A DNA stretch of 37,504 bases from a virus, in IMG/VR virus record IMGVR_UViG_3300037347_000028, positions 1-37,504 of that record. The stretch is one strand, 5' to 3'. The translations under genes were made by a program, and so were the position numbers. The stretch's first letter is position 1. Each line of letters opens with the position of its first letter. Under the pieces are notes generated by a model. That model saw nothing but the letters and a program-made list of their open reading frames with translations, did not search any database and was not told the DNA's origin. This document shows, in pieces, positions 1 to 37,504 of the stretch.

Positions 1-127
1 CGATAAGAAAAATTTTGATCGATAAGAAAAATTTTGATCGATAAGAAAAATTTTGATCGATAAGAAAAATTTTGATCGATAAGAAAAATTTTGATCGATA
101 AGAAAAATTTTGATCGATAAGAAAAAT
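1..127. repeat. 19-bp tandem repeat array, about 6.7 copies
   Basis: The unit CGATAAGAAAAATTTTGAT repeats head to tail with no visible mismatch from the first base until it diverges at 128. A 19-bp period is not a multiple of three, so the array is not a coding repeat. Each junction makes an ATCGAT palindrome and each unit has an AAAATTTT core. It begins a few bases past the stop of the 66-aa gene and runs off the window edge. Iteron-like origin repeats, a regulatory array, or an assembler artefact are all possible; the sequence alone does not decide. Confidence 0.9.
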
Positions 128-133
128 ATATCT

Positions 134-334
134 TTAGTGGAGACGCCAAAACCAATTTAAAATTGGAATTAGTAATAAAGTTAACCCCGCGCAAGCTAAA
201 ACAACTACGGCCATTATAAGGTATATGCTTAAAGGAAGTCGGTTTTTAGTAAAAACAAATATAAACACATCCCCAAAAAAGGTTACAACTTGGGCTATAG
301 CTAATACAACCAATATTAATTTAAATCTTTCCAT
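134..334 (-). CDS. Small two-helix membrane protein
   Basis: This 66-aa protein starts MERFKLILVV and has two strongly hydrophobic stretches, about residues 5-28 and 35-60, joined by a short FTKNRLPLS loop. It is therefore probably an inner-membrane hairpin protein. I chose the ATG at 334. The frame stays open upstream to a TTG at 427, but that extension crosses the tRNA-like segment and has no hydrophobic or protein-like character. It is the last gene of the leftward unit, ending at the 19-bp array. Function unknown; a holin-like or superinfection role cannot be told from sequence. Confidence 0.6.
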   Translation of the reverse strand: MERFKLILVVLAIAQVVTFFGDVFIFVFTKNRLPLSIYLIMAVVVLACAGLTLLLIPILNWFWRLH

Positions 335-349
335 AAGTATATTTTTAGT

Positions 350-431
350 GGCGTTTGAGGAATCGAACCTCCGACCCGTTTTCCAGCCCACGAAATACTC
401 AATAAATTTCTTGCTGTAAACTATCAACGCC
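350..431 (-). other. tRNA-like segment with a good T arm and acceptor 3' side
   Basis: On the minus strand, positions 372-357 read GGAGGTTCGATTCCTC, a canonical T stem and 7-base T loop (TTCGATT). The 3' flank AACGCC (355-350) pairs with GGCGTT (431-426), so a six-pair acceptor-like stem closes an 82-nt element, with an A after the stem as a possible discriminator. The interior does not fold as a normal tRNA: I find no GG-bearing D loop, and no 7-base anticodon loop with U33 on a good stem. It could be a tRNA remnant, an attachment-site-like 3' tRNA piece, or a very divergent tRNA. Confidence 0.4.
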
Positions 432-463
432 TTGATCCATCCCTATTAAAAGGGCTTAATATT

Positions 464-628
464 CTATTTCATGGGGTATGTGGTTTTTCTTAGTCTTCCA
501 ATAAAGACGTTATTACTCTGCGATTTTCTAACTTTCTGTATTTTTAGCGCCGCTTTGTAATTTAAAGCTTCTACCGTATTAGTGTATTTAACGCCATTAA
601 TTATTACTTTATTAGTGTATGTCTTCAT
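464..628 (-). CDS. Small basic protein (54 aa)
   Basis: This gene begins MKTYTNKVIINGVKYTNTVE and ends RLRKTTYPMK. It starts 5 bases after the SNF2 helicase stop, behind an A-rich leader, so it is probably translated from the same message. The product is short, soluble and basic, with a VIINGVKY beta-strand-like start followed by a Lys/Arg-rich second half that could bind nucleic acid. I do not recognise a family. It is supported by the tight spacing, by an ATG start, and because it fills the gap left by its neighbours. Confidence 0.6.
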   Translation of the reverse strand: MKTYTNKVIINGVKYTNTVEALNYKAALKIQKVRKSQSNNVFIGRLRKTTYPMK

Positions 629-5963: not shown

Positions 5964-6000
5964 CGTATTACGTTTTTACTACTTTAACATTTATTTAACA
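5964..6000. promoter_or_regulatory. Repeated 37-bp operator-like element, copy A
   Basis: These 37 bases match 37239-37275 with one difference. The element has an odd-centred palindrome CGTATTACG at one end and, on the minus strand, two TGTTAAA units with an 11-bp period at the other. It lies between the polA stop and the promoter of the primase operon. The same arrangement ahead of the 281-aa gene argues for a shared DNA-binding regulator. Confidence 0.65.
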
Positions 6001-35936: not shown

Positions 35937-36179
35937 TTATTGTCTGTTTTTTAATTCCTGGTTAATATAGTACTTTGTCGTTTCGTCGTTTTCAAGTATA
36001 AAATCGTACCCATTCCAGGTGTTATACGCAGGTGGCGTATAATTGTTAGTACATTTGACACGGATTGCGGCACCTGAATTAAAAACCGATATAGCAAAGT
36101 ATAAATAGCATTTTTGACTTTTCAAGGCCCTTTTTAGTTCTTTTGTGTCTGTTTCTGATAGTGTACATGTTAATGTCAT
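35937..36179 (-). CDS. Small protein of unknown function (80 aa)
   Basis: The product MTLTCTLSETDTKELKRALK... has a central YLYFAISVFNSGAAIRVKCT stretch and an aromatic YTPPAYNTWNGYDFILEND segment. Three Cys are present (residues 5, 24 and 43 by count). It is the first gene after the terminator at 36290-36312 and element C at 36244-36277, so it leads the small-gene operon. No family recognised. Confidence 0.65.
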   Translation of the reverse strand: MTLTCTLSETDTKELKRALKSQKCYLYFAISVFNSGAAIRVKCTNNYTPPAYNTWNGYDFILENDETTKYYINQELKNRQ

Positions 36180-36243
36180 AATATTGTTTTTTTAGTGCTT
36201 CAGCTTTATTGCTGTTGTAAAAATACGAAAGATATACATAAAA

Positions 36244-36277
36244 CGTATTACATTAAATGTTAAATTATTGTTAAATT
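36244..36277. promoter_or_regulatory. Operator-like element, copy C (rearranged)
   Basis: CGTATTAC is followed by two TGTTAAAT units with an 11-bp period (36258-36276). The same two motifs form copies A and B, but here the TGTTAAA pair points the other way relative to CGTATTAC. It lies 65-98 bases upstream of the 80-aa gene, ahead of the small-gene operon. Confidence 0.5.
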
Positions 36278-36333: not shown

Positions 36334-37179
36334 TTATAAAAGCGGTTTCATTACTCTATGCATCGATTTGAGATTAATTTTATGACAGCCTATAGTTAAG
36401 GTACCGTTTATAGATGTAACTGTGTACTTGTCAATTTGAAACCCTTTTATATCTTTACCCGATAGGATCAAAGAATACAATATTTTAGCCCCCTCAACAC
36501 CTACGCTAACTTGCTGCGATGTTTCAATAAAAAAGCCGTTTTCTGATAGCCGTACATAGTCTTGATCGCCTCTCCATATTCGGTTAATTTCATGCGTATA
36601 AAACTTATTAATTTCTATCGCCGTTTTAACTTTTGCGGCTTTTAACTTTGCGGCTTTCTCGGCCTTAATTATTGCCTCTTTTTTAGCTAAATATTCCGAA
36701 TAGTCGGAACCGCTAAAAATTAAATATATTTCTTCAATTGCCAAAATAGTGAAAATATCATTTCGGCGATCGGACCAATTTAGCCACTCATTAAACTCTT
36801 TATATAAGCTATGTGCTGGCAATATATAAAGCTCCTTTTTATTTGCGCGCTGCAATTTTTGCGCGTAAAATTCTAATTTAGCTAAAACCGTTTCGGGGTC
36901 CGTATCGCTTGTGTAAAATCTTTTAAGGTGCCTAGAGGCTGCCTGTAGTTCGCTTATATGTTTTCTAGTTGTTACCGAATATCCCGCATTATTAATAATT
37001 AAGGCGCTTTCGCCGTTCGCATTCTCTGTGAACTCGCCTAATAAATAATGTTTCCCATAGGAATAGATTTTTGTAGGTTCGTCAAAAAAAACGTTTCTTG
37101 AGGCGTTACAAGCTTCGTTTTGCTGTTGGTTTGCAAATAAATGCATAACGTCTGATGACTTGGAAAATACTTTTTTCAT
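36334..37179 (-). CDS. Conserved-looking phage protein of unknown function (281 aa)
   Basis: The protein starts MKKVFSKSSDVMHLFANQQQ, then RNVFFDEPTKIYSYGKHYLL (28-47), ALIINNAGYSVTTRKHISEL (59-78) and a Lys/Ala-rich helix (KKEAIIKAEKAAKLKAAKVK, about 165-184) before a C-terminal beta domain. The N-terminal pattern VFS..S.V.HLFA.Q....A......FF....IYSYG.HY.LGE is one I recall as widespread in Bacteroidetes phages, without a known role. It forms its own transcription unit between element B and the terminator at 36.3 kb, as an early regulated gene would. Confidence 0.75.
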   Translation of the reverse strand: MKKVFSKSSDVMHLFANQQQNEACNASRNVFFDEPTKIYSYGKHYLLGEFTENANGESALIINNAGYSVTTRKHISELQAASRHLKRFYTSDTDPETVLAKLEFYAQKLQRANKKELYILPAHSLYKEFNEWLNWSDRRNDIFTILAIEEIYLIFSGSDYSEYLAKKEAIIKAEKAAKLKAAKVKTAIEINKFYTHEINRIWRGDQDYVRLSENGFFIETSQQVSVGVEGAKILYSLILSGKDIKGFQIDKYTVTSINGTLTIGCHKINLKSMHRVMKPLL

Positions 37180-37238
37180 GGTCTTGCTTTTTTAATTGAT
37201 TAATTGTTGGTGCAAATATCGAAATAACATTTTGATAA

Positions 37239-37275
37239 CGTATTACGTTTTTATTACTTTAACATTTATTTAACA
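37239..37275. promoter_or_regulatory. Repeated 37-bp operator-like element, copy B
   Basis: This copy differs from 5964-6000 at a single base. It lies 60-97 bases upstream of the 281-aa gene. A near-miss -7 box (GATATTTG on the minus strand, 37221-37214) follows it, so the element would sit at or just upstream of RNA polymerase, as in copy A. Confidence 0.65.
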
Positions 37276-37338
37276 TTTACTTTAATTTAAAAATTGCAAA
37301 CTTTGCAGGATCTAAAATATATACCTTATAAGAATAAA

Positions 37339-37504
37339 TCAAAATATAATTTTATCGGCGTCTACCTTAATAGGACCAATAGGACCAATAGGACCAATAG
37401 GACCAATAGGACCAATAGGACCAATAGGACCAATAGGACCAATAGGACCAATAGGACCAATAGGACCAATAGGACCAATAGGACCAATAGGACCAATAGG
37501 ACCA
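37339..37504 (-). CDS. C-terminal end of a collagen-like Gly-Pro-Ile repeat protein (5' truncated)
   Basis: The minus strand runs in open frame from the window edge as 15 perfect Gly-Pro-Ile triplets, all coded GGT CCT ATT, then KVDADKIIF and a TGA stop at 37341-37339. Gly at every third residue is the collagen rule, and Pro at position X favours a triple helix; Ile at Y is unusual. Phage collagen-like repeats mostly occur in fibres or other trimeric structural proteins. Start and N-terminal domain lie outside the window. The strand agrees with all other genes. Confidence is limited by the edge and by possible assembly inflation of the repeat. Confidence 0.65.
37369..37504. repeat. 9-bp tandem repeat AATAGGACC, about 15 copies
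   Basis: AATAGGACC repeats perfectly 15.1 times to the window edge. The period of nine keeps reading frame, in agreement with the collagen-like gene on the minus strand. Perfect codon-level identity shows the array is young, unstable by slippage, or generated in assembly. Confidence 0.95.

Follow-up and report, generated by a model that had tools for sequence, protein, structure and literature searches.

A perfect 9-bp tandem array that reads Gly-Pro-Ile on both strands at the end of a phage contig

The right end of the phage contig analysed here (the window, all 37,504 nucleotides of IMG/VR record IMGVR_UViG_3300037347_000028, classed as linear) is filled by a perfect 9-bp tandem array that can be read as a collagen-like Gly-Pro-Ile (GPI) repeat. 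As a repeat the array is real and far beyond chance. Whether it encodes anything is a closer matter: we hold at about even confidence that it is a recently expanded, noncoding minisatellite, and consider this slightly likelier than the collagen-like C-terminus of a gene. The weights that we give to this and to the three other readings below are judgements, not computed probabilities. Specifically, the minisatellite would occupy a variable part of the genome of a Bacteroidota siphophage, with the replication helicase on one side and a conserved early leader or promoter element on the other, and would have grown by replication slippage; it would have no protein product and would act at most as a variable-length spacer upstream of the promoter of the gene at 36334-37179. 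Nothing in the array is categorically new. The features on which the argument turns are as follows.

37369..37504, no strand assigned: 9-bp tandem array, plus-strand unit AATAGGACC, minus-strand unit GGTCCTATT; at least 136 bp, truncated at the edge of the contig
37339..37504, minus: open frame reading (GPI)15 and the residues that follow it, with no start codon inside the window; putative coding
37373..37504, plus: antisense (GPI)n frame, with 19 open codons ahead of the array and no ATG, GTG or TTG among them
37226..37274, minus: conserved leader, promoter-like, separating the array ORF from the 36334 gene
36334..37179, minus: next gene downstream, 281 aa, its N-terminus in PHROG 7247 (unknown function)
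1..127, no strand assigned: perfect 19-bp tandem array, unit CGATAAGAAAAATTTTGAT, exactly 127 bp long and immediately following the stop of ORF 134-334

Arrays at both contig ends

The 9-bp unit AATAGGACC fills 37369-37504 with 15.1 copies at 100% match (TRF), and the array has a GC content of 44% versus 21% in its flank. The opposite end of the contig is a second perfect array, with a 19-bp period that is not a codon multiple. The number of array bases at the two ends is informative: 127 at the left and 136, which is 127+9, at the right. When a de Bruijn graph was simulated at k=127, the unitigs that exit a long tandem array kept exactly 127 of its bases, and a 15-unit array (135 bp) caused no break; metaSPAdes breaks at repeats are known to leave end sequence of length maxK (PMC10914622). 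From the end-array lengths, the assembly of this record appears to have used k=127, and we read the extra nine bases at the right as one turn of the assembly loop. Both ends therefore fit a minisatellite that breaks a short-read assembly, each being a perfect array whose length equals k or exceeds it by whole periods. Because the array is cut at 127+9 bases, as such a loop would cut it, fifteen is a minimum copy number imposed by the assembler, the true array is at least 136 bp long, and the start of any gene here lies beyond the edge. The sequence-only reading had counted fifteen GPI triplets, and the minus strand does read fifteen, but the count is not biological; likewise, its statement that GPI is the only triplet holds for the last stretch of at least 136 bp, to which knowledge of the array's purity is confined. 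In short-read phage assemblies generally, a repeat count taken at a contig end is a measure of the assembler k-mer rather than of the genome.

The perfection of the array, and a contig stop just where a k=127 graph requires one, speak for a noncoding minisatellite, as does the perfect array of non-codon period, placed just behind a stop codon, at the opposite end. The break also invites the thought of a chimeric join, in which the array would come from another organism with the same 9-bp repeat and the phage contig would run into that graph loop. Such arrays exist in other genomes and wrong joins happen at repeat contig ends, but unique phage DNA runs on into at least 127 bases of the array, which requires reads across the junction, and we consider this the most improbable of the four readings.

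The left array (1-127), a direct repeat, could be iteron- or operator-like. The ORF that it follows (134-334) encodes a small membrane protein, and no relatives of either the 19-bp array or this ORF were found in the viral contigs scanned.

Reading frames and chance

Translation of the minus strand confirmed the GPI triplets, the KVDADKIIF tail and the stop described from sequence: 15 GPI triplets run into KVDADKIIF and then TGA, ending at 37339, nine codons past the array. The assignment of this frame to "the coding strand" fared less well. The plus strand also reads GPI, in the codons GGA CCA ATA, and all three minus frames (GPI, VLL and SYW) are open through the array, so that openness is no evidence for coding. 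The two-strand reading is a property of the unit: with GGNCC and AT both palindromic, an array of GGNCCNATH reads GPI or GPM on the opposite strand, and by computation 36 of the 48 GPI codon sets give GPI on both. Consistent with this, the Pfam Collagen family (PF01391, cut-off 27.2 bits) scores above cut-off on the plus strand (29.3 bits) as well as the minus (27.3-28.7 bits); since the antisense also passes, the score does not discriminate. As the opposite strand of a (GPI)n array always yields GPI or GPM, a collagen-like annotation of such an array needs independent coding evidence. In weighing the present array, we count GPI on both strands as a point for the noncoding minisatellite.

A plus-strand collagen gene beginning in the window was considered and rejected, since the open frame leading into the array from the preceding stop contains no ATG, GTG or TTG. 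With no start in the plus GPI frame, a gene in the GPI frame must be on the minus strand, with its start beyond the contig edge. The strongest rival, which we regard as a real possibility but put behind the minisatellite, is that the minus-strand frame is the C-terminus of a small collagen-like gene. Such a gene would be a lineage-specific accessory placed between the helicase and the early promoter, and in it (GPI)n would form a triple helix ending in KVDADKIIF and would change length in frame by 9-bp slippage. Its frame is open to the stop nine codons past the array and scores 28.7 bits against Pfam Collagen, it is on the strand shared with nearly all other genes, and its period is a codon multiple. 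Moreover, the unit is improbable by chance: among random 9-bp units at 36-44% GC, 37-50% yield Gly-X-Y in some open frame, but only 0.9-2% yield Gly-Pro-Y and 0.4-0.8% Gly-Pro-hydrophobic. By these rates a Gly-X-Y look alone means little, and GPI gives some weight to coding. The rarity of Gly-Pro plus a hydrophobic residue and the codon-multiple period thus count against the noncoding minisatellite, as do the array's GC content relative to its flank and a genome that is about 90% coding. Set against the collagen-like gene are the equal score of the antisense and a tail without homologue (the pattern V-D-A-D-K-I-I-F, in all codons, had no match in viral contigs). On the C-terminal side of the repeat there is this nine-residue tail only, and the N-terminal side runs off the contig.

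We judge it unlikely that the array codes in one of its other frames, whether VLL or SYW on the minus strand or NRT on the plus strand (from a TTG at 37294). All three minus frames and plus NRT are open, the last over 70 aa from its TTG; however, minus SYW and VLL stop immediately after the array, and plus NRT opposes the neighbouring genes and has TTG as its only start.

Genomic setting and relatives across the break

The recognised genes of the window (large terminase, portal, major head protein, tape measure, endolysin, DNA polymerase and helicases) are nearly all on the minus strand. The best named relatives of the terminase, at 35-40% identity, belong to Cellulophaga and Flavobacterium phages, which suggests that the host is probably a Bacteroidota bacterium; no DNA similarity to named phages was found. 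The tail genes occupy about 13-25 kb; the array, at 37.4 kb, is past both the terminase and the small early genes. This early-region position, well away from the tail genes, disfavours the fibre role earlier proposed for the array, and the array's place outside the tail module also weighs against a collagen-like gene.

It is useful to compare the window with two close relatives, L041 and L043, whose terminases are 79-83% identical to its own. Each has helicase and terminase on a single contig, separated by 2.8 kb in L041 and 1.8 kb in L043; the interval contains small genes, and no array or Gly-X-Y gene was found in it. From their order of helicase, early genes and terminase, the two window ends would face each other on a circular or permuted map. 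A 178-bp block at the left end (window 324-498) is 86% identical to L041, and by sequence comparison the arrays and the gap appear to lie in a stretch without counterpart in L041 and L043. That these two have no such gene favours the noncoding minisatellite; in the same vein, none of 43 related phage records has a collagen match above the Pfam cut-off, which tells against a collagen-like gene.

A leader element of about 50 bp stands directly after the helicase in both L041 and L043, and the window's copy at 37226-37274 is 84% identical (E 2.5e-10) to the one in L041. The conservation of this leader, which follows the array, at several early sites is a further argument for the noncoding minisatellite. 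The element is repeated on the minus strand of the window (37226-37274, 5964-5999 and 36174-36252) and occurs from about 2154 in L041 and about 821 in L043; it is made up of TGTTAAATAAATGTTAAA..GTAATACG and then a TATNTTTG-like box, and it precedes several early genes. To judge from this recurrence, it is probably a shared promoter or operator. For the 36334 gene itself, a direct viral-contig scan found no relatives; L040, a record found through the terminase scan, has a 91% identical end of this gene and starts inside it.

The coding rival is kept alive by another related phage record, L013/L125, in which both sides end in 9-bp units coding a Cys-rich (SDC/RSC)n protein. As in the window, a 9-bp array lies downstream of the same helicase and the contig breaks there; in contrast to the window, unique N- and C-terminal parts and varied units make this clearly a gene, and its sequence is unrelated to the window array. 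A 9-bp array near this site can therefore be a gene, which counts against the noncoding minisatellite. The Cys-rich tripeptide-repeat protein (SDC, RSC, SYC; L013 13329-13522 and L125 4070-4489) has unique ends, its gene is cut by the contig break, and its C-terminal region has matches in PHROG 20532 and 7964, families of unknown function.

Near the left edge, a conserved noncoding block (window 344-436, minus; L041 2499-2584) has a T-arm GAGGTTCGATTCCTC and an acceptor-like stem and is tRNA/tmRNA-like. A real tRNA here was rejected, as ARAGORN and Rfam at gathering thresholds were negative; the one Rfam signal for this block was a tmRNA match in L041 below threshold (E 0.011).

GPI arrays in other genomes

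A scan of viral contigs for (GPI)≥6 returned 17 stretches, ten of which lie in long collagen-like ORFs (457-1948 aa) with GPI at 13-71% of triplets and a longest run of 7; the others, judged by ORF length and context, are not GPI-frame-gene-like. That long phage collagen-like ORFs are often so rich in GPI favours the collagen-like gene, but their pure GPI runs do not exceed 7. The IMG/VR phage ORFs concerned (L087, L088, L093, L096, L098 and L090/L097) resemble the window in their GPI triplet runs, yet these are runs of 6-7, mixed with GPQ, GPT and GNT in proteins of 457-1948 aa, whereas the window has at least 15 identical units and any protein body is absent from the contig. With the window's own 9-bp unit, a six-copy scan of viral contigs found only L009, an unrelated phage, where the unit is inside a long phage ORF; this counts against the noncoding minisatellite.

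The comparison can be extended to EPclA-D of Escherichia coli O157:H7 prophages, likely side-tail proteins in which conserved phage-fibre domains flank the repeat (PMC3368898). These share with the window an uninterrupted Gly-X-Y stretch over the Pfam Collagen (PF01391) cut-off; the window differs in that no fibre domain is seen, only one triplet is used, the position is in the early region and both strands score. We found no papers on Gly-Pro-Ile collagen or on 9-bp repeats in Flavobacterium phages. We are doubtful that the window holds an early-region accessory gene of a Bacteroidota siphophage whose protein would end in pure (Gly-Pro-Ile)n, longer than any in the scanned viral contigs and subject to in-frame slippage.

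Bacterial genomes offer a different picture of pure GPI arrays. Among 84,980 of them, (GPI)≥8 in any codons occurs in 19 stretches. Seventeen of these have their longest ORF across the array in a frame other than GPI, and the remaining two carry a GPI ORF of 80-81 aa. Judged by ORF length and context, pure bacterial arrays of this kind mostly lie outside plausible GPI-frame genes, and we count the 17 of 19 in favour of the noncoding minisatellite. These arrays (in Chthoniobacter MAG contigs, Akkermansiaceae and Mycolicibacterium xanthum, L104) are like that of the window in their mostly uniform GGNCCNATH units, several being at contig ends and the L104 unit being the window's GGTCCTATT; they differ in lying on bacterial rather than phage contigs and, at 8-12 copies, in being shorter. 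In a single Chthoniobacter flavus MAG, seven contigs (L103, L106, L107, L108, L114, L116 and L119) carry 9-bp arrays that read GPI, and in L103, L106 and L119 the array is at the contig end or at most 20 bases from it.
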